Shown here: positions 6,029 through 37,144 of the stretch, piece after piece
Position numbering within the stretch: the stretch's first letter is position 1
Layout of the letters: each line of letters starts with the position of its first letter
From: an uncultured Flavobacteriales bacterium
GTDB taxonomy: Bacteria; Bacteroidota; Bacteroidia; Flavobacteriales; Flavobacteriaceae
Assembly: GCA_913063255.1 (NCBI GenBank)
Contig: CAJXYJ010000009.1
Location: 1-39,988 of the forward strand
Length of the DNA: 39,988 nucleotides
Direction of reading: 5' to 3'
Translations under genes and position numbers: made by a program
The notes under the pieces: generated by a model
Seen by the model: the letters and a program-made list of their open reading frames with translations, nothing else
Databases searched by the model: none
What the model was told of the DNA's origin: nothing

Positions 6029-6071
6029 TGATATATATCATTAAATATCTGATGGTTAGAGATTACTTTTG
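6029..6071 (+). promoter_or_regulatory. CRP/FNR-like dyad and -7 box for redox module 2
   Basis: Dyad TGATATATATCA at 6029-6040 (centre 6034.5) and a perfect Bacteroidota -7 box TACTTTTG at 6064-6071. The box begins 29.5 bp from the dyad centre. This would place the dyad near -41, the class II activator position known for CRP/FNR proteins. No good -33 element is visible, as expected for an activator-dependent promoter. The same geometry recurs at six other sites in the window. Confidence 0.75.
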
Positions 6072-6099
6072 AAAAGATTTAATTTCTTAAAATCAGACA

Positions 6100-7008
6100 A
6101 TGGAAAATAACGATTCTAAAAATGACTCAAGAAGACAATTTATCAAAAAAATTTCTACAGGAAGTTTACTAGCTGCTTCCGGATTAGCAATCACGTCACT
6201 TACCTCTTGTAAAGAATCTTCAAAAGAAAAAACTACTTTATTAACTACAGATGGAAAGTTAGTAGAAGTTTCCAATTCAGAAATTTCATCATTAGAACAC
6301 AAACATATAACACCTAAAGAATCACGACAAGGTATCCCTGGAAAAAAATGGGTAATGGTAGTGGATCTCGGTAAATGTAAAAATGCTAAAAAATGTGTAG
6401 ATGCTTGTGATAAACATCACAATTTGACACCAGACAGGCCTTATATTAAGGTACTTGAAATGAAGGATAATGAAAAATCATCCCCATATTGGATGCCTAA
6501 AAAGTGTTTCCAATGTGACAACCCGCCTTGTGTTAAAGTGTGTCCGGTTGGTGCTACTTACAAGCGTACAGATGGCATTGTATTAATTGATAACGAACGC
6601 TGTATAGGATGTCGTTTCTGTATGGCTGCTTGTCCTTATTCGGCAAGAGTATTTAATTGGGCAGAACCCCCTGAAGAGAATCAAGATGAGCTATACTCTC
6701 CAGAGACAAGTATTCCAAGTAAAATTGGAACAGTTGGGAAATGTGATTTTTGTCCAGATATGCTTAGAAAAAATATGCTTCCTCATTGTGTAACCAAATG
6801 TCCTAATGGAGTAATCTATTTTGGAGATGAAATTGAAGACACAGTAACCAATGGCGAAGAAACCGTTCGATTAAGTACCTTGTTAAAAGATAAAGCAGGT
6901 TATCGGTATATGGAAGAATTAGGTACAAAACCTCGTGTTTATTATCTGCCTCCTGTAGATAGGATGTTTCCATTTGAAAAGGACACTGAAGAAAGTAGTG
7001 AATCATGA
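6100..7008 (+). CDS. Tat-exported four-cluster Fe-S lipoprotein, copy 2 (NrfC/DmsB-like)
   Basis: 302 aa. The Tat motif SRRQFIKK (residues 10-17) is followed by a hydrophobic stretch that ends in LTSC (Cys37), a lipobox, so this copy may be a Tat-dependent lipoprotein; copy 1 lacks that cysteine. The four ferredoxin motifs match copy 1, and motif I again lacks its second cysteine (Ala96 in CKNAKKC). The stretch between motifs III and IV is shorter than in copy 1. It overlaps the NrfD-like gene by four bases. A dyad plus -7 box at 6029-6071 puts this module, unlike module 1, under the locus-wide regulatory pattern. Role as for copy 1: electron wiring between the quinone site and a cytochrome. 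Confidence 0.92.
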   Translation: MENNDSKNDSRRQFIKKISTGSLLAASGLAITSLTSCKESSKEKTTLLTTDGKLVEVSNSEISSLEHKHITPKESRQGIPGKKWVMVVDLGKCKNAKKCVDACDKHHNLTPDRPYIKVLEMKDNEKSSPYWMPKKCFQCDNPPCVKVCPVGATYKRTDGIVLIDNERCIGCRFCMAACPYSARVFNWAEPPEENQDELYSPETSIPSKIGTVGKCDFCPDMLRKNMLPHCVTKCPNGVIYFGDEIEDTVTNGEETVRLSTLLKDKAGYRYMEELGTKPRVYYLPPVDRMFPFEKDTEESSES

Positions 7009-8360
7009 GAAATTCAAATATGAAACCACAATTATTTAATTCAGAAAGAGAAAAGGACTTATTAGGTCATTTAGTAACAACCTCTTTAAAGTATAAATTA
7101 TGGATCGCATTTTTGCTTCTCATTATTATTATAGGCGGATATGCATATTATAGACAGTTGACTTTAGGGCTTGTAGTAACTGCAATGAGAGATTATACCT
7201 CATGGGGAATATATATATCAAATTTTGTTTTTTTTGTTGCCATTAGTTTAGTAGGATCCTTGATAAGTTCCATATTAAAACTTAATAAAAATGAATGGGC
7301 TAAACCACTAACTAGAGTTTCAGAGATTATCGCAGTTGCTGCAATAATTTGTGCTGCAGTAATTATTATTGTTGATATGGGCCGTCCCGACCGATTTTTT
7401 TATGTGATTACACATTTAAGAATTCAATCGCCAATTATTTGGGATGTTATTATTATTTCAACCTATTTAATAATAAGTCTTTTATTATTATATCTATCCT
7501 TACTTCCAGATATTGCATTATGCCGAGATCGACTTACTACTATTCCAAAATGGAAAAAATGGATGTATAGAATTACAGCTATTAATTGGACAAATCATCC
7601 CAAGCAAATTAAATTACTTAAAAAAGTTAGTAGAGTTTTAGCTATAACAGTACTTCCAGTAGCATTTGCAATTCATACGGTAACATCATGGTTATTTGCC
7701 ACCACATGGCGCCCAGGATGGGATAGCACTAACTTAGGGCCTTATTTTGTTTCAGGAGCATTTATGGCAGGTGCAGCTGCGATTATTTTTACGATGTATT
7801 TAATGAGAAAACACTTAAAATTAGAAGCATATATTACGGAATACCATTTTGATAAAATGGGTCGACTTTTAGTGTTGTTATCTCTAGTATATCTTTACTT
7901 TAATATTAACGAATATCTTGGCCCCGCTTTTAAAATGGTAGGTGTTGAAGGAGAACATATTACTGAACTATTTGTTGGTAAATATGCTCCATTGTATTGG
8001 TTTGTTCAGTTAGGAGGGCTTGTTTTTCCTATAATTTTATTAATTATAAAACCATTTCGTAAGCCTTTACCTTTATTTATAATTTCATTATTTGTGATTT
8101 TGGGCGCATGGATTAAAAGGTTTTTAATAGTGATCCCATCATTACAACATCCTTATTTGCCAATACAGGGTGTTGACGAATCTTATTTACATTATAACCC
8201 TACTTGGGAAGAATGGGCTATTACGTTATCTTCTTTCGCTTGGTTATTATTGATAATTACGGTACTAATTAAGTTGTTTCCTGTAATACCTATTCAAGAA
8301 AAAAAGGAGGAATCAAAAACAGTTGTTGAACAAAATACATTAAAAAATGAGACTTTTTAA
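7005..8360 (+). CDS. NrfD/PsrC-like membrane quinone-site protein, copy 2
   Basis: 451 aa, paralogue of the product at 3329 with the same landmarks: 'DYTSWGIYISNFVFFVAISLVGS', 'DMGRPDRF' and 'FNINEYL'. There are about 8-10 membrane segments. Two ATG codons are possible (7005 and 7020); 7005 gives the four-base ATGA overlap with the Fe-S gene, as in module 1, and is preferred. The C-terminal tail (about residues 425-451) is charged and differs from copy 1. It overlaps the next gene by 14 bp. The expected function is quinone/quinol exchange with the Fe-S lipoprotein. Confidence 0.92.
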   Translation: MRNSNMKPQLFNSEREKDLLGHLVTTSLKYKLWIAFLLLIIIIGGYAYYRQLTLGLVVTAMRDYTSWGIYISNFVFFVAISLVGSLISSILKLNKNEWAKPLTRVSEIIAVAAIICAAVIIIVDMGRPDRFFYVITHLRIQSPIIWDVIIISTYLIISLLLLYLSLLPDIALCRDRLTTIPKWKKWMYRITAINWTNHPKQIKLLKKVSRVLAITVLPVAFAIHTVTSWLFATTWRPGWDSTNLGPYFVSGAFMAGAAAIIFTMYLMRKHLKLEAYITEYHFDKMGRLLVLLSLVYLYFNINEYLGPAFKMVGVEGEHITELFVGKYAPLYWFVQLGGLVFPIILLIIKPFRKPLPLFIISLFVILGAWIKRFLIVIPSLQHPYLPIQGVDESYLHYNPTWEEWAITLSSFAWLLLIITVLIKLFPVIPIQEKKEESKTVVEQNTLKNETF

Positions 8361-8931
8361 TTTTTTAGAGATACATACTTTGAAACTATTTTTCCTTACA
8401 GGGTTTCTAGTATTCAATACTTCATTAATTCATAGTCAAGAGGCAATGGAAGATGCCAATATCTCTATTTCCTTTTCAGATGAAAACGATAGTAAAACTA
8501 TTATAGCAAAAGCTTTAGATCAATCGGGTCTACCCATTGAGGATCTTGAATTGTATTTTTTTGTAAAAAGGACTTTTAGTTTGTTACCAATAGGAGATAG
8601 TTTTAATGTAACCGATGAAAATGGATTGTTAGAAGTTGAATTCCCAAAAGACCTACCAGGAGATACAGATGGGAATGTTATTATTATAACAAAAATTATT
8701 GAATCTGACTTGTATAACGACTTTTCCATGGAAACAATTAAAAATTGGGGAATACCTGTTATACTAGAAGACCCAAAAGTTGAGAAACGATCATTATGGG
8801 CAGCTGCAGCTAATGCACCTATTACTTTAATTATATGTATTAGCTCAATGATATTAGCCGTCTGGTATATTATTTTTTATATCCTTTTTAAGCTTTATAA
8901 AATAAGTAAGATAACTTCTATACAACATTAA
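8347..8931 (+). CDS. Membrane-anchored Ig-like protein of the redox module, copy 2
   Basis: 194 aa. It has an N-terminal signal peptide (hydrophobic about residues 13-30), one beta-sandwich-like domain (about 35-140) and a C-terminal transmembrane helix ('ITLIICISSMILAVWYIIFY'). It matches the second half of the product at 4642, for example 'LPG(V/D)TDGN' and the charged segment before the helix, and lacks the extra first domain. No known family is recognised. Conservation of its place in both modules argues that it is a real accessory subunit. Confidence 0.75.
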   Translation: MRLFNFLEIHTLKLFFLTGFLVFNTSLIHSQEAMEDANISISFSDENDSKTIIAKALDQSGLPIEDLELYFFVKRTFSLLPIGDSFNVTDENGLLEVEFPKDLPGDTDGNVIIITKIIESDLYNDFSMETIKNWGIPVILEDPKVEKRSLWAAAANAPITLIICISSMILAVWYIIFYILFKLYKISKITSIQH

Positions 8932-8973
8932 AACATTAAACGATAACATGTTTATTAATTCAATTTTATTATT

Positions 8974-9390
8974 ATGAGAAAACAAATATTTATTTTAAGT
9001 GCACTCTTTGTAGGATGTTTTGCTTTATTATCTATGTCACTATTAGATTCTGAATTTCAGGACCCTTGGGAAGTTCCAGCGAAGTATCAAAAAATGGAAA
9101 ACCCATTTTTAGATGCAGCAGATGAGGAAAATATTGGACGAATGATGTATTCTAAACATTGTAAATCTTGTCATGGAACTAAAGGGAAAGGAGATGGTAC
9201 AAAAGCAGAAGATTTAGATACTGAAGTGGGAGATTTTACGGATGGATCCCTTATAGATCAAACCGATGGAACTCTTTATTATAAAACATTTTTTGGAAGA
9301 GATGACATGCCAAGTTTCAATAAGAAAATAAAAGTAGAAGAAGAAAAGTGGATGATAATTAATTATCTAAGAAAATTAGCTAATAAGTAA
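8974..9390 (+). CDS. Monohaem cytochrome c, copy 2
   Basis: 138 aa, closely related to the cytochrome at 5522. It has a hydrophobic N-terminal segment, 'WEVPAKYQKMENP', the haem motif CKSCHG, 'FFGRDDMPSF' with the probable Met ligand, and 'KWMIINYLRKLANK'. It is the last gene of module 2; the gap from the previous gene is 42 bp. It is predicted to carry single electrons in the periplasm, perhaps to the multihaem proteins encoded downstream (inference). Confidence 0.92.
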   Translation: MRKQIFILSALFVGCFALLSMSLLDSEFQDPWEVPAKYQKMENPFLDAADEENIGRMMYSKHCKSCHGTKGKGDGTKAEDLDTEVGDFTDGSLIDQTDGTLYYKTFFGRDDMPSFNKKIKVEEEKWMIINYLRKLANK

Positions 9391-9478
9391 AAAATAATTT
9401 CAATTTATATTAAAATTAATATTTTTTAAAGTTAGTTTAGTTTAAGTGTTAACGCCTTGAAAACAAGATGTTTTAATT

Positions 9479-9510
9479 AAAAGGACTATGATAATTATCA
9501 TAGTCCTTTT
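9479..9510. terminator. Perfect palindrome: terminator of module 2 that also holds a regulatory dyad
   Basis: The 32 bp read AAAAGGACTATGAT then its exact complement, with T residues at the end, as in an intrinsic terminator. Its centre (9489-9500) is TGATAATTATCA, the CRP/FNR-like dyad found elsewhere in the window, placed exactly for the -7 box at 9524. One sequence seems to end one operon and activate the next. Confidence 0.75.
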
Positions 9511-9531
9511 GTGTAGCTTATATTAAATTTG
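9489..9531 (+). promoter_or_regulatory. CRP/FNR-like dyad and -7 box for the NHL/26-haem operon
   Basis: Dyad TGATAATTATCA at 9489-9500 (centre 9494.5) and a perfect -7 box TAAATTTG at 9524-9531, with the box starting 29.5 bp from the centre. The predicted transcript start is about 15-20 bp before the ATG at 9554. Confidence 0.75.
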
Positions 9532-9553
9532 GGTAATTAATTGTAAATGACAA

Positions 9554-12262
9554 ATGTTGAATACAACTAAATACTTTATTTTTTATGTGTTGTTATTTAT
9601 TTTCACAATACCTATAAACGCACAATATAATACCAGCGATTTTGTTCCTACTAGTATACTCAGTAGCGAATTGTATGCACCAGGAAGAATGGCTATTGAT
9701 ACCACTGACAATGTATATGTAGTTGATGCTGTTCAAAGAAATATTGTAAAATATGATGCCCAAGGAAACTTTATTAACACAATTGACACTAATTTAAATC
9801 CATTATCAATCGCTGTAAATAACAAAAATCATTTGTTTGTTGGTGACAAAAATACAGGCGATATATATACAGTAAAGGCTAATGGAACAAAAATATTATT
9901 TTATTCTGGTTTAAGCTTTCCGGCTTCCATGGAATTTGGTTTAAATAATATTCTGTATGTGGTAGATAGCGAACAAAAAAAAGTGATTGGTTTGGATGTT
10001 TCGGGCGATGTTGTCCAAGACTTTACTTTTAGCACATTTACTTTTCCCACTGGAATCGCTTTTGATCATCAAAATAATCGCATCCTTGTTTCTGAACATG
10101 GGGGGATAGGTCCAGATGTTCAAGAATGTGGAGGAGGATGTAGCATATGCTGGGGTGAAGACGGTCCAGTGACAACCATTTATATTTTTGACATCAATGG
10201 AAATTACATCTCTGAATTTGGATGTTTTGGTACAGATGAAGGCTTATTTCAAAGAATCCAAGGCATAACAGTAGGAGCTTGTGGTAATATTTATGCCACA
10301 GATCCTTACTTAGGACGAGTTAGCGTTTTTGATTCTGATGGTAATTATATTACTAAATTTGGATCTCAGGGTAATGGACCTGGGGAATTCAATATTCCGA
10401 CTGATATTGTTTTTAGTACAGATAATCGCGCATTTGTTTCTTCTATGAATAAAGGAGCTATTGATGTCCTTTCAGTTACTTTTTCTTTACCTACAGCAAC
10501 AATTACAAGTACTGATAAGGCTATTTGTGCAGGAACCACAACAGATATTACGGTTGATTTTACAGGAGTTGCACCTTGGAACTTTACGTATACACAGGAC
10601 GATTCAAATCCTATTCAATTAATTGCTAATGAAACCCCTTTCAGCTTCCCTGTAGATGTTGAAGGCCTCTACATAATAGATGCTCTTACCGATGCTAATG
10701 GTGATATGGGTACTTGTTTTACAGGTAGTACTCAGATAACGGTTAGTACAGAGCCGCCAACAGCTACCCTAATTATAACTGAACTGGAAAAATGCAATGA
10801 TGATCCTTCAGGAATAGAATTGCAGTTTACTGGAATGGCGCCATGGACTTTTACTTATACCATTGATGGGGCTAATCCAACCGAAATAAGCACAAATCAA
10901 AGTCTTTATATTTTAGATGCAGAGCAATCTGGGGACTATGAATTTTTTAATCTCTCAGACGATGCGTGTACCGGTACAGAAATTATAGGTAATGTCATTG
11001 TGACTGTACACCCTATGCCTTCAGCCAACTTTACTAGTGATGATGACATTTTTATAAACCCTGGTGAATCTGCAGATATTGAAATTTCTTTTACGGGTAC
11101 TGCTCCATTTACATTCACTTATATTTTAGACAATAGTAATTTAACTTCAATTACAACTACTAATAATCCGTTTTTATTAACTGTTGCTGATGAGGGTACC
11201 TATGAGATTATGTCTGTAGCTGATTTATATTGTATTAATGATAATTGGCAAGATGAATTTAATATTTTCTTTTATGATATCCCTCCAACAGCAACTATAG
11301 AAACTTCAGATTTTTATTTATGTTCCGATGAAACTGCAGATATTTCAATAGATTTTACAGGCACATCTCCATGGACATTCAGTTATACCATTGACGGGTT
11401 TGATCAAGGGAGCATAATTGCACCCTCATCTCCTTATTTCTTCACCTCATCATTGCCTGGTGTTTATGAGTTGAGTTCAATTTCTGATCAAAATACTACA
11501 GGAACATTTTCAGGAGCAGCCAACGTTCTGTTGCTCGAAGAACCCATAGTAAACTTACCTGAAGATTTTTATCTGTGTGATGGAGATCCAGCATATATAT
11601 TAGATGCAGGAGAGCATGTGTCTTATGTTTGGAGTGATGGAAGTACAAATAGAACATTAGCAGTAAGTGAAACAGGTACTTATAGTGTTACAACAACAAA
11701 TATTTGGGGATGTACTGCTTCAGATTCGGTTAGTGTTACGGTTTTATCGCCTTCTGATGCGAATTTTAATTTTGTTGTGAATTATTTAGAGGTTCGGTTT
11801 GTGAGTGATACTTATCTAGCAGACTCACATTATTGGGATTTTGGAGATGGTACTTTTTCAACAGATGAAAACCCAATCCATACATTTGCTTCAAAAGGAA
11901 CCTATACAGTTACCTATACAGCTATTAATGATATCTGTGGAACTTCTGTTTATTCCGAAGATATTTATGTTAATACTAAGCCTCTTAAAGAAGTCGTTGA
12001 TATATACCCAAATCCTTCCAGTGGAGAATTTACGGTAGCAATAAGTCCAAAAAAACCTCTTGAAGGATTGATTGATATTTTTGTATATGGTATGTCAGGG
12101 AATCCCATATATTCTGAAACTTTCGATCCAAACACTGTTCCAACAAATGAAGGTGTCTTATTAATCGAGATTTATATAGGTAATTTTACCAATGGAATGT
12201 ATATCGTTACTGTCAATACCAGCAATTTTGTTGAACAGCACCAATTATTATTACATCACTAG
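9554..12262 (+). CDS. T9SS-secreted NHL beta-propeller protein with Ig-like and PKD domains
   Basis: 902 aa. Signal peptide about residues 1-23. NHL/six-bladed propeller repeats run from about 25 to 310 ('GRMAIDTTDNVYVVD', 'TKFGSQGNGPGEFNIPTDI'). Four tandem Ig-like repeats of about 85-90 aa follow (about 312-670), each with a 'DFTG.(A/S)PW.F.Y' core. Then come an Ig-like segment, a PKD domain ('YWDFGDGTFSTDENPIHTF') and a type A T9SS sorting domain ('DIYPNPSSGEFTV' to the end). The protein should be exported through T9SS and anchored on the surface or released. A cysteine-rich loop (CGGGCSIC) in the propeller has no histidine, so it is not a haem site. The stop is 4 bp before the 26-haem gene, so the two are an operon. 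NHL genes accompany multihaem genes three times in this window. Confidence 0.88.
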   Translation: MLNTTKYFIFYVLLFIFTIPINAQYNTSDFVPTSILSSELYAPGRMAIDTTDNVYVVDAVQRNIVKYDAQGNFINTIDTNLNPLSIAVNNKNHLFVGDKNTGDIYTVKANGTKILFYSGLSFPASMEFGLNNILYVVDSEQKKVIGLDVSGDVVQDFTFSTFTFPTGIAFDHQNNRILVSEHGGIGPDVQECGGGCSICWGEDGPVTTIYIFDINGNYISEFGCFGTDEGLFQRIQGITVGACGNIYATDPYLGRVSVFDSDGNYITKFGSQGNGPGEFNIPTDIVFSTDNRAFVSSMNKGAIDVLSVTFSLPTATITSTDKAICAGTTTDITVDFTGVAPWNFTYTQDDSNPIQLIANETPFSFPVDVEGLYIIDALTDANGDMGTCFTGSTQITVSTEPPTATLIITELEKCNDDPSGIELQFTGMAPWTFTYTIDGANPTEISTNQSLYILDAEQSGDYEFFNLSDDACTGTEIIGNVIVTVHPMPSANFTSDDDIFINPGESADIEISFTGTAPFTFTYILDNSNLTSITTTNNPFLLTVADEGTYEIMSVADLYCINDNWQDEFNIFFYDIPPTATIETSDFYLCSDETADISIDFTGTSPWTFSYTIDGFDQGSIIAPSSPYFFTSSLPGVYELSSISDQNTTGTFSGAANVLLLEEPIVNLPEDFYLCDGDPAYILDAGEHVSYVWSDGSTNRTLAVSETGTYSVTTTNIWGCTASDSVSVTVLSPSDANFNFVVNYLEVRFVSDTYLADSHYWDFGDGTFSTDENPIHTFASKGTYTVTYTAINDICGTSVYSEDIYVNTKPLKEVVDIYPNPSSGEFTVAISPKKPLEGLIDIFVYGMSGNPIYSETFDPNTVPTNEGVLLIEIYIGNFTNGMYIVTVNTSNFVEQHQLLLHH

Positions 12263-12266
12263 CTAT

Positions 12267-15200
12267 ATGAAAACAAAATTACATCAACTATTGAGTTCTG
12301 GAGTGTTTTCTATAATAGTCCTGTTATTTTTATTCTCTTTTCAAAATTCCTATAGTCAATCCACTTTTACGTTAACAGACCCAGTCAATGATGTTTCATT
12401 TACCATTCCCACAGGCGCTACCAATATTACTATTGAAGTCTGGGCTGCAGGTGGTAGTGGTGGATCTTCAGGTAATAATGCTGCAGGTGGTGGTGGTGGT
12501 GGTGGTGCTTATAGCCGATCCATAAATATTTTTAGCCCAGGAACATATGACATACAAATTGGAGCTGGCGCACCTCAGACTCCTAAGAATGCCAATGGTA
12601 CTGTAGGAGGGGATACCTGGTTTGACAGTGTCGGAATTATATTTGCAGAAGGAGGAAGTGGCGGATCCTCCTCTGGAAGTGGAGGCGCTGGTGGTGCTGG
12701 AGGTAATGCTGCCAATGGAATTGGAAATGACGCTACTCTTTCAGGAGGAACCGGTGTGGGTAGTACTGGCGTCCAAGGTGGTGCTGGAGGGAATGGTGCC
12801 AATGGAGGTACAGGTGGTGCCGGAGGTAATGATGTAAACGGACTAGACGGAAACACTCCCGGTGGTGGTGGTGGTGGTTCTGGTGGTAGAAATAATCTAG
12901 GGGGAGCTGGTGCAAACGGACAAATTATAATAACATATACAGTAGGATCTGTTTGTAGTTTAGCGACTAACGGATTAGCAAATATCCTTTGTGACTATAA
13001 TGGAACTCTATCGAATCCTGCAGATGATACTTTTTCATTTACTTTAAACCCAACAGGAACTGATCTTGGCGCTACTTATAATGTTAGTGGAGATATTACT
13101 CGAAATAATATTACTTATGGAGGAGATGAGCTCTTTACCGGATATGATATTTCAGCAGGAGACCTGACCATTACCATAACGGACGTTTCTACAAATTGCG
13201 ATATCACTAACTTCACAGTGCCAGCACCTGCAACTTGTTCACCTGATTGTGGTCTGGTAGATTCAGGGTTAACAAATATTCAATGTTACCCTGAAGGAAC
13301 CCCTACCATTCCATCAGATGATACATTTTCATTTGATCTTAATCCTACTGGTAACAACCTAGGTGCTACCTATAGTGTTAGTGGAGGGTACACCCAAGCA
13401 GGTGTTTCTTATGGATCAGCAACTACATTTTCAGGAAGTCTTATTTCAGGAGGTAATCTAACCATAACCATAACAGATGATGCTACAGGATCTTGTCAAA
13501 TAGTCGATCTGCCTGTACCAGCTCCTCCAACTTGTTCTGGGGCTGTAGTGTGTGATTTAACAAGCTCAGGATTAACACTTTTACCATGTGACCCTAATGG
13601 GACTCCAGCGAATCCTGCAGATGATACCTTTTCATTTGATTTAAACCCAACTGGTACCGATTTAGGTGCTACTTATAATGTCAGTGGAGATATAACACAA
13701 TCTGGAATTTCTTATGGATCCGCTACAAATTTTTCAGGATTTCTGATTACAGACGGTAACCTCAGCATCACCATAACAGACGTATCCACAGATTGTACTT
13801 ATGGTCCCTTTACAGTAATCGCTCCTGCCCCTTGTTCTTTTGATTGTTATTTGGCAACCTCTGGATTGGACTCTATTCTTTGTGACAATGTAGCAACTCT
13901 TACTGATGAAACAGATGATACTTTTTCTTTTGAATTAAACCCAACTGGAACCTATTTAGGAGCAACGTATAGTGTTAGTGGAGATATCACTCAATCGGGT
14001 ATAAGTTACGGATCTCCAACAGCCTTTTCTGGCTATCTGATTTCGGCTGGTAACCTCAACATTACCATCACAGATGATACAGACGGATCTTGTACATTAG
14101 TTGAAACAATACCCGCTCCTCCTCCGTGTTCTTTAAATCATATTTCTTTTAACTGTACTTCCTGTCATATTACCCATAATGCTCCTGGATCAAATTTAAC
14201 CAATGCTGAATTTAATGCGCTTTTATGTCAAAGTTGTCATATTTCTGAAGGTGTAGCAGGTGATAAGCCTCTAGTAAATGCTAATAAGGCTTCAGAAAGT
14301 GGACTGCGAAATTCTCATTCATGGGATGTTCCTGGTGATGATACCGCAGGCTTTCAAACTAATTTACCGACCAATAACGAAATGTTGATTAGAATGCCAG
14401 AAAACGGTGGAAAAAAAGAAATTATATGCTCTACCTGTCACAATCAACATAATAATGGATATGCGGACTCTCCTTATTTAAGAGTTGATAATACAGGAGA
14501 TGCCATGTGTAAAGACTGTCACTCAACTAGAGATGTACAACGTTTTCAAGATGTAGGTGACAACAAAGGAAGTCACCCTGTAGGTGTCGTTTACGACGGG
14601 GGTAATTCAAAATTAAAAGCAAGTCCAACTGATACACAAACAGTAAATGGTAATGTTGAATGTTCCAGTTGTCATGGTGTTCATGATGTTACAAATAGTG
14701 GTGTACTTACTACCGATGGTAATTTATTGAGAACTACCAACGATGTTAACCTATGTTTGGACTGCCATAATTATATTGGACATTCAGGTTACGATTGTTT
14801 AGATTGTCATGAAGTACACAATACTGTCGATGGTACTATAGGAAGCAATATTATGATGATTAGAGATAATATTGATACTCCTGGGGGTAATAGACCTGTG
14901 GTATTTCTTGCTAAATCAGGGGCTGATTCCTTTGTAAATACAACAGGTTCTCGAGATGGTGTTTGTGTGGTCTGCCATACTACTTTAAGTCATGATAATT
15001 ATAATGATGATACAAATGTAACCCATGACGACAGTTCCGATAAAGCGGGAGAGACATGTACTAGCTGTCATCTTCATAATGATGTAACTAATAGTTTCAC
15101 GCAACCAACTGGACCACAATCTTGTGTAAGTTGTCACTCCTCAGCACAAAGTGGAGCTCGGGGATCAGTAGTTCAGATTGTTGGTTCCGGTGGAGAAATG

Positions 15201-17285
15201 GACAATACATTAATTTCAAGACATACTACTTCAACCGTTGGTAACGACCCACTCACTGAAGAATGTGAGGCTTGTCATTATGAAAGTGTAGGAGATCATC
15301 CAACATCAGAGATGATGTTAGAAGATTCGGCAAATCTCAACACCGTTTTCTCTGGTAGTGATAAAGATGTTTATTGTGTTGGTTGTCATGATGGGTCAAC
15401 TCTTTATCCTAGTTTGTTTCCAGATCTAGATACAGATCCTAAATATGATAAATCATCTTATATTACTACACCTCATGATACAGGAAATGATACCTGCTTA
15501 TTATGCCACGAAAGGCACGGATCTCAATATTCAGCACTAACAAAACAAGCTAGTAACTATGAAAATTGCTTTGCTTGTCATGACGGAGGTGTTGCGAGTA
15601 CCAATATCAGTTCTGCCGATATTGCCATTCCTGGAACGAGCGGAACTGGGCATGCGTTTAGTACTGATATTAATCCAGTAAGCGCAAGTTCGGGTAATTA
15701 TCAATCCAATACCCCTTCCGATCCAACGATGGACGCCCGATTGGATTCTGGAAATATAGTATGCTCTACTTGCCACGATCCTCATAATGCAAATTCCAAA
15801 TATTTAGTTAGTGCTAATGATACAGACCAGATGTGTAAGGACTGTCATAACGCAAGAGATTTGGGTAGATTTTCCGACGACATTGTACTAAATAAAGGAA
15901 GTCACCCTGTTGGACTAGCTTATGTAGCTGGAGGCGATTATATTGATCCTGCACCTACCTTGAGTGCTACACAAGTTGGATTAAAAAATGGAAACATCGA
16001 GTGTTCGAGTTGCCATGGTGTTCATAATACTACAACCTCCGATGGTAATTTACTCAGGGAAACAATGACAAGTGCAACTTGTCAAGAATGTCATAATTAT
16101 CAAGCGCATCAGGGATTTGATTGTCTGGACTGTCACCAGGTTCATAATGGAACTAATATTATGCTTATAAAAGATAATATTGATATAGATCCGACTGCAG
16201 GTGTTGATTTATGGCCAGTTGTGTTTAACTCACAAGGAACTACAGCATCTCCTGTGCAACCATCTCTACATTCATTTGCAGATGGCGATGAAGATGGAAA
16301 TGGCATCTATGATGGAATTTGTGAGGTATGTCATACTTCAAACCCTAGTACATTTCACTATAATACTTCAGCAGGAGATCATTCACATAATAAAGGAAAA
16401 TCTTGTGTTAGCTGTCATCCACACAGAGATACTGATACGGGTATTTCATTCCCTAACGGTTCTTGTCATGACTGTCACGAAAGAACAGCTCCGGGAGATC
16501 CACAGTTATATCCGGCAACCGGCGCACATGAAATTCATGCAGGCTCTCTTTATGAATTTAAATGCAGTGAATGTCATTTCGGACATGGGGACGGAAATGA
16601 AGTTCCTCATGGAAGTGGCGGTGATCCAGATGTGATTTTTGACCCTACGGGCCTAGCTTCTAGATTAGGAAAAGATTTAACAACGGCAGATCCTATTACT
16701 ACATGGGGTGGAGCTGATCCATCATGGGATTCGGGAACTAAAACCTGTAGCAATATTTATTGCCATAGTGATGGACAAAGTGCATATCGTGGACAGGATG
16801 GCACTAATGTCTGGGATTCAACTAGAAATGGACCTGAAGAAGTAGCCCCTACTTACACTAATCAGGTTTGGACAGGATCTATCACCACTTGCGATGCTTG
16901 TCATGGAGGGAAAGGAAATATGACTGCTCCATATACCATCGATACGAATAGTCCTGATGCGCACCTTATTCTTGATTTCGACGGTGTTCAGACGCCTACT
17001 AGTGGTTTGCATACACATACTGCTATGTTTGGTGATAGTCAGGACACAAGTGGTCCCACAGGTGCCGGTGCCGTGCAATGTTACTTGTGTCATAACACTA
17101 ATGGTGCTGCCAATAGTGGAACGAATTATCAGGGTACTTATGGGTCTCCTTTAAAAAAACATGTGGATGGGGAAACCTATTTCATAATGAAAATCTATGC
17201 CGAAGGAGGAACATGGGCAGATTGGAACGGGACTGCGGGTAATGGTTATTTGGACCATTGTATAAGTAAAGGGAATTGGAAATAA
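12267..17285 (+). CDS. 26-haem surface cytochrome with Gly-rich head and four Ig-like repeats
   Basis: 1672 aa from the ATG at 12267; the frame is open upstream to 12192, but that would overlap the previous gene, and a signal peptide (ending SYSQ) begins at 12267. Order: a Gly-rich domain (about residues 30-225), four Ig-like repeats of 97-100 aa (229-622), then a haem region from about residue 628. I count 25 CXXCH plus one CSNIYCH (CX4CH, about 16746), the latter paired with CDACH as in Geobacter C4xCH/C2xCH domains. Two long modules repeat the same haem order (about 14427-15080 and 15760-16430: CSTCH, CKDCH, CSSCH, C..CH, CLDCH, C.VCH, C.SCH). No T9SS sorting domain is seen at the C terminus, so the export route is unclear. 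It is a likely extracellular electron conductor or store. Confidence 0.9.
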   Translation: MKTKLHQLLSSGVFSIIVLLFLFSFQNSYSQSTFTLTDPVNDVSFTIPTGATNITIEVWAAGGSGGSSGNNAAGGGGGGGAYSRSINIFSPGTYDIQIGAGAPQTPKNANGTVGGDTWFDSVGIIFAEGGSGGSSSGSGGAGGAGGNAANGIGNDATLSGGTGVGSTGVQGGAGGNGANGGTGGAGGNDVNGLDGNTPGGGGGGSGGRNNLGGAGANGQIIITYTVGSVCSLATNGLANILCDYNGTLSNPADDTFSFTLNPTGTDLGATYNVSGDITRNNITYGGDELFTGYDISAGDLTITITDVSTNCDITNFTVPAPATCSPDCGLVDSGLTNIQCYPEGTPTIPSDDTFSFDLNPTGNNLGATYSVSGGYTQAGVSYGSATTFSGSLISGGNLTITITDDATGSCQIVDLPVPAPPTCSGAVVCDLTSSGLTLLPCDPNGTPANPADDTFSFDLNPTGTDLGATYNVSGDITQSGISYGSATNFSGFLITDGNLSITITDVSTDCTYGPFTVIAPAPCSFDCYLATSGLDSILCDNVATLTDETDDTFSFELNPTGTYLGATYSVSGDITQSGISYGSPTAFSGYLISAGNLNITITDDTDGSCTLVETIPAPPPCSLNHISFNCTSCHITHNAPGSNLTNAEFNALLCQSCHISEGVAGDKPLVNANKASESGLRNSHSWDVPGDDTAGFQTNLPTNNEMLIRMPENGGKKEIICSTCHNQHNNGYADSPYLRVDNTGDAMCKDCHSTRDVQRFQDVGDNKGSHPVGVVYDGGNSKLKASPTDTQTVNGNVECSSCHGVHDVTNSGVLTTDGNLLRTTNDVNLCLDCHNYIGHSGYDCLDCHEVHNTVDGTIGSNIMMIRDNIDTPGGNRPVVFLAKSGADSFVNTTGSRDGVCVVCHTTLSHDNYNDDTNVTHDDSSDKAGETCTSCHLHNDVTNSFTQPTGPQSCVSCHSSAQSGARGSVVQIVGSGGEMDNTLISRHTTSTVGNDPLTEECEACHYESVGDHPTSEMMLEDSANLNTVFSGSDKDVYCVGCHDGSTLYPSLFPDLDTDPKYDKSSYITTPHDTGNDTCLLCHERHGSQYSALTKQASNYENCFACHDGGVASTNISSADIAIPGTSGTGHAFSTDINPVSASSGNYQSNTPSDPTMDARLDSGNIVCSTCHDPHNANSKYLVSANDTDQMCKDCHNARDLGRFSDDIVLNKGSHPVGLAYVAGGDYIDPAPTLSATQVGLKNGNIECSSCHGVHNTTTSDGNLLRETMTSATCQECHNYQAHQGFDCLDCHQVHNGTNIMLIKDNIDIDPTAGVDLWPVVFNSQGTTASPVQPSLHSFADGDEDGNGIYDGICEVCHTSNPSTFHYNTSAGDHSHNKGKSCVSCHPHRDTDTGISFPNGSCHDCHERTAPGDPQLYPATGAHEIHAGSLYEFKCSECHFGHGDGNEVPHGSGGDPDVIFDPTGLASRLGKDLTTADPITTWGGADPSWDSGTKTCSNIYCHSDGQSAYRGQDGTNVWDSTRNGPEEVAPTYTNQVWTGSITTCDACHGGKGNMTAPYTIDTNSPDAHLILDFDGVQTPTSGLHTHTAMFGDSQDTSGPTGAGAVQCYLCHNTNGAANSGTNYQGTYGSPLKKHVDGETYFIMKIYAEGGTWADWNGTAGNGYLDHCISKGNWK
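12951..14132 (+). repeat. Four tandem Ig-like coding repeats in the 26-haem gene
   Basis: Units at 12951-13241, 13242-13538, 13539-13838 and 13839-14132 (97, 99, 100 and 98 codons). Each begins with 'C.L..(S/N)GL', has 'DDTFSF.LNPTG..LGATY.VSG' in the middle and ends with 'PAP..CS'. The paired cysteines may be disulphides. These probably form a stalk between the Gly-rich head and the haem region. Confidence 0.85.
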
Positions 17286-24039: not shown

Positions 24040-24113
24040 CAAAAATAATATAATAATACAGGTTGTATGATGACAAATGTCAGGTTTAGGTTGAGCTATT
24101 TTAATTAGTTTTG
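24040..24113. promoter_or_regulatory. Single dyad serving two divergent promoters
   Basis: Dyad TGACAAATGTCA at 24071-24082 (centre 24076.5). On the + strand the box TAGTTTTG starts at 24106; on the - strand TATTTTTG starts at 24047 (plus-strand 24040-24047). Both perfect TAnnTTTG boxes begin exactly 29.5 bp from the centre. The + promoter serves the NrfJ-like gene at 24147, the - promoter serves ccsBA copy 2 (start 24010). Confidence 0.8.
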
Positions 24114-24146: not shown

Positions 24147-24854
24147 ATGAAATATTATTTAAGTTTAGTCATGGTATTAGTGCTGGTGTGGTCTTGTAAT
24201 AATGCCCCAAAAACAGATGCAAATAACAATCTAGATGTACATGAGGCTATTGTACAGGAGGTACTCCATGTAAAAGAATATTCCTATATCCGTGTTTTAG
24301 AAAATGGTATTGAAAAATGGATTGCTGCCCCAACTACAGTTGTAGAAATAGGAGGCACCTATTATTTTGGCAAAACCATGGAAATGAAAAACTTTGAAAG
24401 TAAGGATTTAAACAAAAGTTTTGAAACCATTTATTTTGTTGAAAAAATTAGTGCTACTGCAGAAGACACAAAGCTTCCTTTAACAACAAACCCTCACCCT
24501 GTTAAAACTGAAAATCCTAAACCTATTATAGAAAAAAAGGAAGTAAATGTTGAAGCTTCCGGAAATACTATAAGTATTGCAGAATTGTTTAAAAACAAAG
24601 AAAGTTATAATAATAATCTTGTAAAAATAAAAGGAGAGGTAACTAAGTTTAACCCAGCTATTATGAATACCAACTGGATTCATATACAAGACGGAACTGA
24701 ATTTAATGGCCTTTTTGACCTTACGGTGACTACTTCTGAAAATGTTGAGGTTGGAGATGTGGTAACCTTAGAAGGAAAGGTAACGCTTAATAAAGATTTT
24801 GGTTCGGGTTATTTCTACGAGATTATTATAGAAAATGCTATCATAATTAAATAA
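24147..24854 (+). CDS. NrfJ-like lipoprotein with C-terminal OB-fold-like domain, copy 1
   Basis: 235 aa. Lipobox LVWSC (Cys17). First domain (about residues 30-110): 'VQEVLHVKEYSYIRVLENG' then 'WIAAPTTVVEIGGTYYFG' and 'MEMKNFESKDLNKSFETI', a pattern I associate with NrfJ-related proteins next to NrfI/CcsBA genes in epsilon- and deltaproteobacteria. Second domain (about 145-235): 'VKIKGEVTKFNPAIMNTNWIHI', 'VGDVVTLEGKVTL', an OB-fold-like barrel. The function is not established; divergence from ccsBA copy 2 points to a role in cytochrome c maturation. The family name is from memory and only moderately certain; the lipoprotein and two-domain layout are plain. Confidence 0.75.
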   Translation: MKYYLSLVMVLVLVWSCNNAPKTDANNNLDVHEAIVQEVLHVKEYSYIRVLENGIEKWIAAPTTVVEIGGTYYFGKTMEMKNFESKDLNKSFETIYFVEKISATAEDTKLPLTTNPHPVKTENPKPIIEKKEVNVEASGNTISIAELFKNKESYNNNLVKIKGEVTKFNPAIMNTNWIHIQDGTEFNGLFDLTVTTSENVEVGDVVTLEGKVTLNKDFGSGYFYEIIIENAIIIK

Positions 24855-24874: not shown

Positions 24875-25597
24875 ATGAAAATATTAAAAACAGTACTCGT
24901 TTTAGCTATATTTCTAATGGCTTACTTACTACAGGCACAAGACCCTCATGCAGAAAGTGGATTGACCAAAGGAATTGTACAGGAAGTGTTGCAGGTATCT
25001 TCATATACCTACTTACATGTATTGGAAGAAAGTGGTATTAAAAGATGGATTGCAGTTCCTACTATCGAAGCCAAATTAGGAGAAATATACTATTATAAGG
25101 GAGGTATGGAAATGCCCGATTTTGAAAGTAAAGAACTCAATAGAAAATTTGATGTGGTCCTGTTTTTAGGGTCTATAACTAATGGTGAGGATATTGATAT
25201 TGAAAAGGGGATGGTAGATCCTAATGTTATTGTTGAAGAGGAAGTGAATAAACCTACTAAACAAGCTACCTTGGAGAAACTAGAGCTTTCTATAGAAGAA
25301 GTAGCAGGTGGCGTACGTATTGCAGATTTGTTTGAAAACAAACAGCAATTTGCAGGTAATAAAATAAAAATTAAAGGAGAGGTCACTAAATTTACTAAAG
25401 CGATTATGGGTAAAAATTGGGTGCATTTTCAAGATGGAACCTATTTTAATGGAGCTTACGATTTAATGATTACTACTCAAGAAATTGTAAATGTAGGTGA
25501 TGTAGTCACTTTTGAAGGTACGATCACATTAAATAAAGATTTTGGTGCAGGTTACTTTTATAGTACCATTATGGAAGAAGCCGTTTTAATTAAGTAA
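24875..25597 (+). CDS. NrfJ-like secreted protein with OB-fold-like domain, copy 2
   Basis: 240 aa, 20 bp after copy 1 and cotranscribed. It has a Sec signal peptide (ending LLQAQ) instead of a lipobox. Both domains are conserved: 'VQEVLQVSSYTYLHVLEESG', 'MEMPDFESKELNRKFD', then 'KIKGEVTKFTKAIMGKNWVHF' and 'NVGDVVTFEGTITLNKDFG'. The linker is acidic and longer. The pair may be one membrane-bound and one soluble version of the same helper. A strong terminator follows. Confidence 0.75.
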   Translation: MKILKTVLVLAIFLMAYLLQAQDPHAESGLTKGIVQEVLQVSSYTYLHVLEESGIKRWIAVPTIEAKLGEIYYYKGGMEMPDFESKELNRKFDVVLFLGSITNGEDIDIEKGMVDPNVIVEEEVNKPTKQATLEKLELSIEEVAGGVRIADLFENKQQFAGNKIKIKGEVTKFTKAIMGKNWVHFQDGTYFNGAYDLMITTQEIVNVGDVVTFEGTITLNKDFGAGYFYSTIMEEAVLIK

Positions 25598-26107: not shown

Positions 26108-26407
26108 ATGAACAAATCCTATGTTTACTTTCTAACTAATAAAAACAATTCCGTTATTTATGTAGGAGTTACAAGTAATTTATTAAAAAGAATATATCAA
26201 CATAAAACAAAATACTTTAAAGGGTTTACATCTAAATACAATTGTGATAAGTTAGTTTACATTGAAGAATTTACAGATATTAATCAAGCTATTTCAAGAG
26301 AGAAGCAGTTAAAGGCTGGACATAGGAAAAGAAAAGAAGATTTGATTAATTCCCTTAACCCTGAATGGAAAGATTTATCTGAAGATTGGGTTTTTAGTAT
26401 TGATTAA
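26108..26407 (+). CDS. Small GIY-YIG endonuclease-family protein A
   Basis: 99 aa, the usual length for stand-alone GIY-YIG proteins. 'YVYFLT' and 'VIYVGVTSNLLKRIYQHK' are the GIY and YIG strands with the following arginine helix; 'AISREKQLK' carries the expected catalytic glutamate. These proteins are single-domain nucleases of unknown substrate in most bacteria. The gene is embedded between two clusters of palindromic repeats (25675-26086 and 26427-26658), with only 21 and 20 bp between gene and repeats. That hints that the repeats are its substrate or that gene and repeats move together (inference). No promoter is obvious. Confidence 0.88.
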   Translation: MNKSYVYFLTNKNNSVIYVGVTSNLLKRIYQHKTKYFKGFTSKYNCDKLVYIEEFTDINQAISREKQLKAGHRKRKEDLINSLNPEWKDLSEDWVFSID

Positions 26408-31767: not shown

Positions 31768-31810
31768 TAAAATTAAGCCTAACATAACTTTTATACTATG
31801 ATAATCATCA
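31768..31810 (-). promoter_or_regulatory. CRP/FNR-like dyad and -7 box for the conduit operon
   Basis: Dyad TGATAATCATCA at 31799-31810 (centre 31804.5). On the - strand TAATTTTA (plus-strand 31768-31775) begins 29.5 bp from the centre; it matches TAnnTTTG except for the last base. It lies 39 bp before the NHL gene start. Confidence 0.6.
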
Positions 31811-32535: not shown

Positions 32536-32616
32536 TAGATTCGAATTTAAATTAATATATATAGTTTTAATGATTCTCTAACCTATTAGTTATTAACAGG
32601 TTGTAATTAATAGTAT

Positions 32617-32659
32617 CAAAGTTAAGAGCGGAATAGCTATAGAAATATGATAAATATCA
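32617..32659 (-). promoter_or_regulatory. CRP/FNR-like dyad and -7 box for the tetrahaem gene
   Basis: Dyad TGATAAATATCA at 32648-32659 (centre 32653.5) and a perfect -7 box TAACTTTG on the - strand (plus-strand 32617-32624), starting 29.5 bp from the centre. The predicted leader is about 75-80 nt. The remaining DNA at 32660-32966 is AT-rich and I see no gene or clear structure in it. Confidence 0.78.
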
Positions 32660-32966
32660 GGATTATGTAACATTTGTTACAAAGCGGTGTTTTTTCTTGT
32701 TAATTTAATGCAAGACTGCTAAGCATCTATTTTATAGTTGTTTTCAGGCGTCCTTTTTTAAACTTCTGGCGATACTTTTTAAATAGAATACTTTTTGGGT
32801 TTTATTGTAGTTTTAAAGTACTGGTAAATAGGCCGATACACTATTTAGTGTAATTCTAAATAAGCTTGTTTTTTTACTATTTAGGTTGTTTTATAGATAT
32901 ATTTTGAGAATAATGGAATATAATACAGTTTGTATTTTATTATATGTAATATTATGGGCTTGTAAT

Positions 32967-33271: not shown

Positions 33272-33273
33272 GG

Positions 33274-35987: not shown

Positions 35988-35988
35988 A

Positions 35989-36031
35989 CGAAATTACTGC
36001 TTCCAAATGATTTAGACTCTGATATTTATCA
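35989..36031 (-). promoter_or_regulatory. CRP/FNR-like dyad between divergent NHL and CBM9-like genes
   Basis: Dyad TGATATTTATCA at 36020-36031 (centre 36025.5). On the - strand TAATTTCG (plus-strand 35989-35996) begins 29.5 bp from the centre, one mismatch to TAnnTTTG. If this is the promoter, transcription starts inside the annotated 5' end, favouring the ATG at 35978. On the + strand a perfect TAATTTTG (36048-36055) lies at another distance (22.5 bp) with TTTA 19 bp before it, so the dyad could repress or be neutral for the + gene. Confidence 0.55.
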
Positions 36032-36073
36032 TATATGAATTTTTCATTAATTTTGTTTAAAATTAGCATTTAA

Positions 36074-36688
36074 ATGAAGATCCTTTTTAATACGCTATTA
36101 TTCCTTGTCTTTTTATATACAGGAATTATCTATAGCCAGCATAATCAATTACAGCTAAATAAAACCTCTGAAACTCATAATATTGATGGGATAATCAACG
36201 AAAAAGAATGGAGTGATGCCAAAAAAATACAACTAGAAAGAACCCAGGAATGGAAGATCGATGTTTTGGTTAGTTATGATGACCTATATATATATGTAGC
36301 ATTCGCAAATTTGGAAGGTACTGACCAAACTAGATTAAACGCAGAAATATTGGTGCAAACCAAGATTGATGAAAATGGATGGGACGAAAACACTTTTTGG
36401 TTTCATTCCTCCTATGGAAATTGTTACTCTCAAGGCGAATACTATAATTGGGAACATTGTTCTAATAATCCATCGGGGTGGAATGCCAATACCTACCCAT
36501 TTAAAAATGGGAATGACAATATAGAGTTTAAAATAAGTTTTGCTGCATTGCAAATGGAAGCACCATTATCGGGAGCTAAGTTAAGGGTTGCTTTTAAAAT
36601 GAGTGGGGCAGATGAAATACATACTTATTGGCCAAAAAATGCTTCTATTGAATCTCCGAGTTCCTGGGGCTTGCTATACTTTGAGTAA
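36074..36688 (+). CDS. Secreted CBM9/DOMON-like beta-sandwich protein
   Basis: 204 aa, signal peptide about residues 1-21 (ending IYSQ). 'NIDGIINEKEWSDAKKI' is the typical opening of CBM9-like domains, followed by 'VLVSYDDLYIYVAFAN' and 'NDNIEFKISFAAL', and 'SWGLLYFE' at the end. The same fold family includes carbohydrate-binding and haem-binding (DOMON/EB_dh-like) domains. Two cysteines ('GNCYSQ', 'EHCSN') could form a disulphide; no CXXCH is present. Whether it binds sugar or haem cannot be told from sequence alone. A promoter-like TTTA-N19-TAATTTTG precedes it. Confidence 0.75.
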   Translation: MKILFNTLLFLVFLYTGIIYSQHNQLQLNKTSETHNIDGIINEKEWSDAKKIQLERTQEWKIDVLVSYDDLYIYVAFANLEGTDQTRLNAEILVQTKIDENGWDENTFWFHSSYGNCYSQGEYYNWEHCSNNPSGWNANTYPFKNGNDNIEFKISFAALQMEAPLSGAKLRVAFKMSGADEIHTYWPKNASIESPSSWGLLYFE

Positions 36689-36797
36689 TTTTTTTTGTGC
36701 TATGTTTTATGATAAAATCTTATTTGGAAGACGGTATTATTTATATTTTTTAGTCCTAGATCCCTCATCGCCTGCTAGTTTTATTTTAAATAGCCTA

Positions 36798-36933
36798 CTG
36801 AAACTACAATTCTCCATATTTACTTTTCAATGTGTGCTGATTTCAGCCATTACACAGGTGGGGATTGGTACTACCACTCCAACCGAAAAATTGGAAATAA
36901 ACTGCAACAGGTAAACTAGGCATTATGTTTTAA
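36798..36933 (+). pseudogene. Decayed fragment of a GIGTTTP-type surface protein gene
   Basis: The frame 36798-36914 gives a signal-like stretch and then 'AITQVGIGTTTPTEKLEIN', the usual start of Bacteroidota surface/tail-fibre-like proteins. At about 36903 the frame is lost; one frame over, 'ATGKLGIMF' continues the motif before a stop at about 36936. The start codon position is CTG. This looks like the 5' end of a broken gene with a frameshift and no remaining body. The rest of 36689-37231 is AT-rich and holds only the hemA promoter. Confidence 0.65.
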
Positions 36934-37101
36934 TTTTTTACTTCCACTAGACTCGTCTACCATAAAAATTAATTACAATTTTCCAACTGGATTTTAAAAT
37001 TACTAATATAACTCTCTGGTAATTATCACATAAAAATTGGAGAAAGAAAACTTCGTAAAATTTAACATTTTGAATAACAGGGTTTTGCGATTTTTCAAAA
37101 A

Positions 37102-37144
37102 TGATTTTTATCATATTTTAATACTTCATTACTTGTGATATTTG
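37102..37144 (+). promoter_or_regulatory. CRP/FNR-like dyad and -7 box for hemA
   Basis: Dyad TGATTTTTATCA at 37102-37113 (centre 37107.5). GATATTTG at 37137-37144 starts 29.5 bp from the centre and matches TAnnTTTG except for its first base. The leader would be about 80 nt. A poorer dyad, TGGTAATTATCA, at 37017-37028 has no suitably placed -7 box. Confidence 0.55.

Follow-up and report, generated by a model that had tools for sequence, protein, structure and literature searches.

Promoter dyads at a flavobacterial multihaem locus as predicted sites of an FNR-like anaerobic activator

A 39,988-nucleotide stretch of DNA from an uncultured member of the Flavobacteriaceae (contig CAJXYJ010000009.1; hereafter the window, meaning the whole stretch analysed) carries multihaem cytochrome, haem and redox genes behind a repeated promoter design. 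This raises the question of which regulator reads that design, and whether it serves this electron-export locus or something wider.

A fixed distance between dyad and promoter box

A sequence-only reading of the window had described seven TGA(T/C)-N4-(A/G)TCA dyads, with a TAnnTTTG-like box whose first base lies 29.5 bp away from the centre of the dyad. We recovered all seven dyads, and the spacing holds in all eight promoter directions, five with an exact box and three with one mismatch (Table 1). A pattern scan for TGAY-N4-RTCA returned 10 dyads in the window: the additional three (6408, 23019 and 33353) lie within ORFs, and none of these three has a box at the 29.5-bp spacing.

Table 1. Dyads, boxes and downstream genes in the window.
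Feature	Genes	Dyad	Box	Span	Strand
Redox module 2 promoter	FeS 6100-7008, NrfD 7005-8360, cyt c 8974-9390	TGATATATATCA 6029-6040	TACTTTTG 6064-6071, exact	6029-6071	+
NHL/PKD and multihaem promoter	NHL/PKD protein 9554-12262; multihaem protein 12192-17285 (1697 aa, 25 CXXCH)	TGATAATTATCA 9489-9500	TAAATTTG 9524-9531, exact	9489-9531	+
Gene pair, shared dyad	24147-24854, 24875-25597	TGACAAATGTCA 24071-24082	TAGTTTTG 24106-24113, exact	24071-24113	+
ccsBA-2 promoter	ccsBA-2 24019-20834	24071 dyad in opposite sense	TATTTTTG 24047-24040, exact	24040-24082	-
Conduit operon promoter	31729-26720: NHL353, cyt272, 655-aa protein, cyt358	31799-31810	TAATTTTA 31775-31768, one mismatch	31768-31810	-
Tetrahaem gene promoter	32535-31882	32648-32659	TAACTTTG 32624-32617, exact	32617-32659	-
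NHL340/564-aa multihaem pair	35987-33274	36020-36031	TAATTTCG 35996-35989, one mismatch	35989-36031	-
hemA promoter	hemA 37232-38458	TGATTTTTATCA 37102-37113	GATATTTG 37137-37144, one mismatch	37102-37144	+
Second dyad near tetrahaem gene		GTAACATTTGTTAC		32667-32680	

The sigma-A -7 box (TAnnTTTG) of Bacteroidota is placed at -12 to -5 in PMC9723704, so that the dominant spacing of 29.5 bp would put the dyad centre at -41.5, the position of a class II activator; the value -41.5 derives from that published box position. The consensus of the sites is mostly (A/C)TGAY-N4-RTCA(T/G), and the base preceding TGA in the 21 exact sites of the source genome is A in 47%, C in 33% and T in 4%. The earlier assignment to CRP/FNR is supported as to the activator type and one fixed, predicted class II geometry, but the match to TTGAT-N4-ATCAA is inexact, given how rarely T precedes TGA.

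Recurrence in the genome and across the order

Chance expectation was estimated from 500 dinucleotide shuffles of the window. The shuffles contained on average 3.3 dyads (maximum 9) against 10 observed, 0.004 exact pairs of dyad and box at gap 23, which is our shorthand for the 29.5-bp distance (maximum 1, 5 observed), and 0.08 such pairs when up to one mismatch was allowed (maximum 2, 8 observed). A genome-wide scan for the dyad plus box found 28 pairs across gaps 8-38, 21 of them at gap 23, whereas the reversed-pattern control gave 8 pairs, none at gap 23. All 21 gap-23 pairs lie outside ORFs of at least 100 aa and are followed by a correctly oriented ATG ORF beginning 5-111 bp downstream; four of the five pairs at gaps other than 22-23 are inside ORFs. 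An alternative dyad, TAAC-N4-GTTA, scanned for the same geometry, had gap 23 in 3 of 10 pairs, all on contig C4, with 10 control pairs across all gaps.

Across 196 genomes of the order, including the source genome, we counted 572 gap-23 matches versus 13 in the control. Site density was 1.60/Mb in genomes with a close fnr ortholog (n = 85; nominally E <= 1e-45, the weakest member, G204, having 2.0e-45) versus 0.43/Mb in those without (n = 107), kinship being ignored in this comparison. In 80 loci around fnr taken from public genomes (the best 80 of 581), 65 of 93 pairs across gaps 0-59 fell at gap 23; the next commonest, gap 9, had 11, and the scrambled-dyad control gave 4 pairs in all. In two relatives, G013 and G010, sites are kept at orthologous promoters despite protein identities of about 29-55%: both have exact boxes at the orthologs of the NHL340/multihaem pair, and G013 also shares the two-way arrangement of the 24071 dyad (L227:2274), with a dyad and two-mismatch box at the same spacing before the conduit operon and a dyad and one-mismatch box before the tetrahaem gene.

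Site presence tracks an FNR-like regulator, imperfectly. Within family f11, the highest site counts belong to G070 (9) and G173 (4), the only members with a regulator match at E <= 1e-25. Three near-complete genomes of the source family without a regulator match still have 3, 6 and 7 sites, a fourth, whose best regulator homolog is 36% identical, has 9, and G009, of the same genus and without a match, has 27 pairs versus 8 in the control, summed across gaps 8-38. Beyond the source family the exact pattern is sparser, and of 345 genomes sampled from the phylum, 145 have at least one site.

Target genes of the element

Outside the window, exact sites have 16 targets, three of them without a telling name. 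Exact sites precede nosZ, hemN, an nrdG-containing operon, 2-oxoacid:ferredoxin oxidoreductases, pnt, pfk/gap and Usp genes, one-mismatch sites precede PFOR, nuoA and a gene that we take to be CcoS-like, and tryptophanase also belongs to the set; NosZ, HemN and NrdG, encoded behind exact sites, exceed their NCBIfam cut-offs, as does PFOR, encoded behind a one-mismatch site. In relatives the site also stands before fnr itself, the CcoS-like gene and Usp genes. The targets span the functions of an FNR-type anaerobic set: anaerobic respiration, a microaerobic oxidase, and anaerobic haem and nucleotide genes. The window had been read as an undescribed cytochrome and electron-export regulon. That functional label is not supported, since the same element is found before nosZ, hemN, nrdG, pnt, glycolysis and Usp genes; its presence at many anaerobic genes and its recurrence across the order indicate a general anaerobic regulon to which this locus belongs as one client among others. 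"Undescribed" stands within the open-licence literature searched, in which we found no earlier description of a flavobacterial FNR regulon.

A split gene as the probable regulator

The regulator is probably encoded by a gene split across contigs C97 and C135. Its C97 part matches HTH_Crp_2 (1.8e-15), and the features of the CRP/FNR superfamily are found: a sensor beta-roll, a long dimer helix and a C-terminal HTH. The structure model of an ortholog (G005; mean pLDDT 79.7) reached, by query length, a TM of 0.87 to 2gau and 0.76 to holo-FNR 5e44 in a fold search, and Aliivibrio fischeri FNR matched the regulator profile at E 1.4e-35 to 3e-34. The NCBIfam FNR model is the top-scoring one, with 93.5 bits on the G005 ortholog, below its cut-off of 228.

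The cluster of FNR is held by Cys20, Cys23, Cys29 and Cys122. In the regulator alignment, Cys4, Cys7 and Cys106 are the equivalents of Cys20, Cys23 and Cys122, no equivalent of Cys29 is present, and Cys53 is invariant instead; these four cysteines, together with E191 and R195, occur in 80/80 orthologs (best 80 of 581). Family f5 is different: 28/28 orthologs align only from residue 16-30 onward, the one ortholog inspected along its whole length is missing all four cysteines, and the family has 0.99 sites/Mb.

Alternative explanations

The dyads and boxes might be a chance or compositional coincidence in AT-rich DNA, and the window's 33.7% G+C and a two-mismatch scan of the source genome that failed to discriminate (212 matches versus 187 in the control) speak in its favour. 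The enrichment is nevertheless confined to one spacing, lies outside ORFs and is seen in many genomes; with the source-genome, shuffle, order-wide, fnr-locus and ORF-position counts all refuting it, we regard this explanation as practically negligible. Another CRP/FNR paralogue might instead be the main regulator, either a receiver-CRP hybrid (C33), which would make the regulon the output of a phosphorelay, or several paralogues acting on one site. The hybrid's helix, GVATESLIR, is similar to GTATESCIR, its gene is the immediate upstream neighbour of a Usp gene that has its own site, some sites persist in genomes without a close fnr ortholog, and distant homologs in 350-370 aa frames (G089, G104, G120, G155) are possibly hybrids too. 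Against this, the hybrid was detected at E <= 1e-40 in just 3 of 30 genomes, the source included, and G010 and G013, which have the fnr ortholog and no hybrid, carry 12 and 15 gap-23 pairs; we consider such a regulator unlikely.

A cAMP- or carbon-sensing CRP of the MalR-like kind would account for the glycolysis genes and tryptophanase among the targets, and the NCBIfam CRP model does match the regulator, below its cut-off. A Flavobacteriales CRP/FNR homolog has been assigned to the carbon-sensing MalR type (PMC8510549); that homolog belongs to the same superfamily and comes from the same order as our candidate, and the sites and targets here point to oxygen rather than carbon. The nameable targets are mostly anaerobic or redox genes, the cysteine set has no exception among the 80 best orthologs, and the FNR model outscores the others, all of which makes carbon sensing a distant prospect.

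Comparison with known regulators

We compared the system with FNR of Escherichia coli and A. fischeri and Anr of Pseudomonas. All share the CRP/FNR fold, an N-terminal CX2C, a Cys122 equivalent, an E...R recognition helix, a dyad whose half-sites flank four central bases (in the flavobacterial case at a predicted class II position), and anaerobic targets. Unlike FNR and Anr, the flavobacterial protein pairs the missing Cys29 equivalent with an extra invariant Cys53, its helix reads TESxIR rather than VETISR, its half-site is mostly (A/C)TGAY rather than TTGAT, and it would work at a TAnnTTTG box, not TATAAT. It thus departs from canonical E. coli-type FNR in the four-ligand set, the NCBIfam cut-off and the TTGAT-N4-ATCAA site.

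HcpR2, known from Bacteroides and others, is likewise a CRP/FNR-type protein of Bacteroidota with a four-central-base dyad, but its consensus is GTAACnnnnGTTAC and its regulon consists of hcp genes only in most species named in PMC1274295. One dyad fitting that consensus, GTAACATTTGTTAC, adjoins an FNR-like site in the window, its centre 20 bp upstream of that of the tetrahaem gene's dyad. The Crp/Fnr-family protein of Porphyromonas gingivalis (PDB 2gau) matches the regulator's sequence better than any other solved structure and ranks second in the fold search; its helix, MTVSNAIR, lacks the Glu, and the profile alignment begins at residue 18, past the CX2C.

Proposed mechanism and significance

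We put the probability that the dyads are sites of an FNR-like anaerobic activator widespread in Flavobacteriales at roughly 80%. An activator dimer would bind (A/C)TGAY-N4-RTCA(T/G) centred at -41.5 from the predicted transcript starts, upstream of the -33 element position, and would aid sigma-A RNA polymerase at the TAnnTTTG -7 box, that is, by class II activation. Oxygen is probably sensed through an iron-sulphur cluster on Cys4, Cys7 and Cys106, with Cys53 replacing Cys29. At low oxygen the activator would then turn on genes of anaerobic respiration, of ferredoxin-linked metabolism and of anaerobic nucleotide synthesis, together with haem supply and stress proteins; in the source organism, the multihaem electron-export locus and the neighbouring cytochrome c maturation gene would respond as well. 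In Flavobacterium psychrophilum, oxygen limitation induces the cbb3 oxidase and haem synthesis (PMC9723704).

More tentatively, with slightly less than even odds, Flavobacteriales may have an old and hitherto undescribed regulon for oxygen, controlled by an FNR variant with CX2C...Cys53...Cys106, another half-site and mainly one box distance. Family f5 may have lost the cysteines and kept site and geometry, in which case its regulon would answer another signal.

Flavobacteria are a major component of communities in soil, sea and fresh water (PMC9723704), and their switch to low oxygen has been little described so far. The sequence rule obtained here is precise enough that candidate anaerobic genes can be listed from a flavobacterial genome; the analysis also names the likely regulator, links an electron-export locus to it, and offers testable cases of an FNR-like activator working with the unusual Bacteroidota promoter and of an iron-sulphur sensor that may be built from a different cysteine set.

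A fixed spacing between dyad and promoter box

The sequence-only reading had described seven TGA(T/C)-N4-(A/G)TCA dyads in the window that serve eight promoter directions, each with a TAnnTTTG-like box starting 29.5 bp from the dyad centre (a gap of 23 bp). We verified every coordinate and every box: five boxes are exact and three carry one mismatch. In 500 dinucleotide shuffles of the window, the mean was 0.004 exact pairs and 0.08 pairs with at most one mismatch, against 5 and 8 in the real sequence. Three further dyads (6408, 23019 and 33353) lie within ORFs and have no box at the 29.5-bp spacing.

The genome-wide scan proposed in that reading was run on the 2.93-Mb draft genome (81.5% complete), of which the window is contig C9, by searching for a dyad and a box separated by 8 to 38 bp, with the reversed pattern as control. 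Gap 23, the predicted spacing, accounted for 21 of the 28 matches; the control gave 8 matches over all gaps. ORFs of at least 100 aa contain none of the 21, and 5-111 bp downstream of every one a correctly oriented ATG ORF of at least 60 aa begins. Two matches at gap 22 are placed alike, outside ORFs and before a correctly oriented ORF; among the five at other gaps, four are within ORFs and the fifth is the window's 36020 dyad read in the opposite direction. Read on the + strand, the 36020 dyad is followed at gap 16 by an exact TAATTTTG box (36020-36055), 18 bp before the ORF at 36074. One-mismatch matches numbered 22, and with two mismatches real and control patterns could no longer be told apart, which leaves it uncertain how far the regulon extends past its exact matches.

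According to PMC9723704, the sigma-A box TAnnTTTG of Flavobacterium psychrophilum occupies -12 to -5, which would put the dyad centre at a predicted -41.5, the class II position of CRP/FNR activators. The own-genome sites show no conservation of a TTG at -33.

Conservation of site and spacing

Among the 150 matches listed from a 30-genome scan, which stem from 11 of the genomes (one of them in part), 60 had gap 23 and any other gap had at most 9. Two genomes of the window's genus (G011 and G017) had no gap-23 match and no match to the candidate regulator either. Across 196 genomes of the order, own genome included, the exact-gap pattern matched 572 times against 13 for the reversed control, with at least one match in 115 genomes. 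In a phylum sample, 145 of 345 genomes had a match, and all 38 of the window's own family (own counted) had at least two; two genomes of a distant family (G452 and G483, f60) gave the highest counts seen, 28 and 30 matches at gap 23 and none in the control.

Public records of Flavobacteriales type, among them Maribacter, Flagellimonas, Zobellia and Flavobacterium, were examined around fnr itself; in the best 80 of 581 loci, gap 23 made up 65 of the 93 pairs at gaps 0-59; these loci share descent, so the 65 pairs are not 65 independent events. Of 16 sites traced there, some precede Usp genes, a gene that by eye is CcoS-like, a gene for a lipoprotein that by eye looks like the product of the opening gene of the nos operon, and either fnr itself or a different Crp-type gene.

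In one relative, G013, the window's right half has a collinear counterpart whose proteins share about 29-54% identity. G013 keeps exact sites at the two-way ccsBA-2 promoter and the NHL340 promoter, a one-mismatch site at the tetrahaem promoter, and a dyad with a two-mismatch box at unchanged spacing at the conduit promoter. Another relative, G010, retains the NHL340 site.

An FNR-like candidate regulator and its rivals

The own genome has five CRP-type genes, and the best regulator candidate is one cut by the assembly, whose C-terminal part ends contig C97 and whose N-terminal part starts C135. Orthologs at E <= 2e-45 occur in 85 of the 196 genomes, where sites reach 1.60 per Mb, against 0.43 in 107 genomes without a match; four genomes with weaker matches were counted separately (13 sites). 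The association has exceptions. Sites number 6 in G056, 3 in G119 and 7 in G184, none of which has a regulator match; G089 has 9 sites, its best homolog being 36% identical, and G009 combines many dyad/box pairs with no match.

Cys4, Cys7, Cys53 and Cys106 and the recognition-helix residues E191 and R195 are present in 80 of 80 orthologs (best 80 of 581). In an alignment with Aliivibrio fischeri FNR, Cys4, Cys7 and Cys106 match three of its four known cluster ligands, whereas Cys29 has no equivalent and Cys53 occupies an alanine position. The candidate probably works like FNR; because one ligand is missing and an ortholog (G005) scores under the NCBIfam FNR cut-off, we call it FNR-like, not canonical FNR. 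In family f5, 28 of 28 orthologs align only from residue 16-30 onward, and the one read at full length lacks all four cysteines. An fnr ortholog in G021 (L073) that has none of the four cysteines keeps its recognition-helix residues unchanged (GTATESAIR). The FNR helix VETISR reads TTGAT, with Ser212 contacting the first T, whereas the candidate's TESxIR pairs with A or C before TGA; the site departs from FNR's in step with the recognition helix.

At the fnr promoter (loci L143-L222 and L060-L067), assigned by position with a translation check for L149, L205 and L210 only, the gap is 23 in loci from Flagellimonas, Maribacter, Arenibacter and Zobellia, 9 in Flavobacterium columnare among others, 14 in F. 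stagni and 18-20 in the window's genus; an exact dyad is absent there in G005 and, by eye, in the own genome. Such lineage-specific gaps might reflect self-activation in some lineages and self-repression in others.

A receiver-CRP hybrid on C33 could act at these sites instead, since its helix resembles the candidate's and its gene directly precedes a Usp gene with an exact site. We consider this unlikely, as at E <= 1e-40 the hybrid is confined to 3 of 30 genomes, own counted; more distant homologs appear elsewhere as frames of 350-370 aa. The hybrid gene (L044) encodes a Crp-type HTH part joined to a receiver domain, and the sequence just upstream of it is histidine kinase-like by eye. Carbon sensing, proposed for a Flavobacteriales CRP/FNR homolog in PMC8510549, matches the targets less well, and a carbon-sensing regulon seems very improbable here. 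Contig C4 holds a CRP paralogue and three TAAC-N4-GTTA dyads, each with a gap-23 box.

Candidate targets of a probable FNR-like regulon

Downstream genes were inspected for the 16 exact matches outside the window and 12 of the 22 one-mismatch matches (Table); for a one-mismatch match on C149, no ORF was found downstream.

Table. Genes downstream of sites, and other features
Class	Feature	Position
Exact site	nos operon with Sec-type NosZ	
Exact site	Oxygen-independent HemN	
Exact site	Sulphur-transport gene, NrdG further downstream	
Exact site	VorB-type 2-oxoacid:ferredoxin oxidoreductase (first of two loci)	
Exact site	2-oxoacid:ferredoxin oxidoreductase (second locus), continuing into nuo	
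Exact site	Transhydrogenase operon	
Exact site	Six-CXXCH cytochrome	
Exact site	Small gene (DUF2892-like) and SQR-like flavoprotein	
Exact site	T9SS-tailed protein, then sodium symporter, phosphofructokinase, GAPDH	
Exact site	Three Usp loci, one with ribosome-hibernation-type protein	
Exact site	Outer-membrane-barrel protein, then UbiA-type prenyltransferase	
Exact site	Three loci without telling name	C4:31131, C11:11711, C33:7879
Gap-22 site	Tryptophanase	
One-mismatch site	Three window promoters	
One-mismatch site	PFOR	
One-mismatch site	nuoA	
One-mismatch site	DeoC-type gene	
One-mismatch site	One gene without Pfam match	
One-mismatch site	CcoS-like gene	
One-mismatch site	Nameless genes	C12, C3
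One-mismatch site	Entered as exception	C23:19430
HcpR2-like dyad	GTAACATTTGTTAC, at the tetrahaem gene, 20 bp upstream of its FNR-like site	32667-32680
Window dyads	Seven, 24071 two-way	6029, 9489, 24071, 31799, 32648, 36020, 37102
Other	Two small GIY-YIG ORFs, opposite strands	26108-26407, 39158-39469
Other	L044, receiver-CRP hybrid	C33:11342-12442
Other	TAAC-N4-GTTA dyads	C4:36305, 44731, 46553

We take this pattern to be of the FNR/Anr regulon type. The sequence-only reading of a CRP/FNR-type regulon was right in kind, and its restriction to cytochromes and electron export was too narrow. No published description of this regulon was found in searches of open-licence literature. In F. psychrophilum, oxygen limitation strongly induces the cbb3 oxidase and haem-synthesis enzymes (PMC9723704), which agrees with the predicted targets and is not proof; words starting with Fnr or Crp are absent from that paper's main text.

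The tetrahaem gene may be under double control, given the HcpR2-like dyad adjoining its FNR-like site. HcpR2 is reported to respond to nitrogen oxides, and its consensus, GTAACnnnnGTTAC, differs from the FNR-like site (PMC1274295). G013 has a near copy of the dyad, GGAACAAATGTTAC, 19 bp from its FNR-like dyad.

The 564-aa multihaem protein was found in only 3 of 30 genomes, own counted, so the locus is rare and the switch common. Within what looks like an FNR/Anr-type regulon, the cytochrome locus of the window forms one component.
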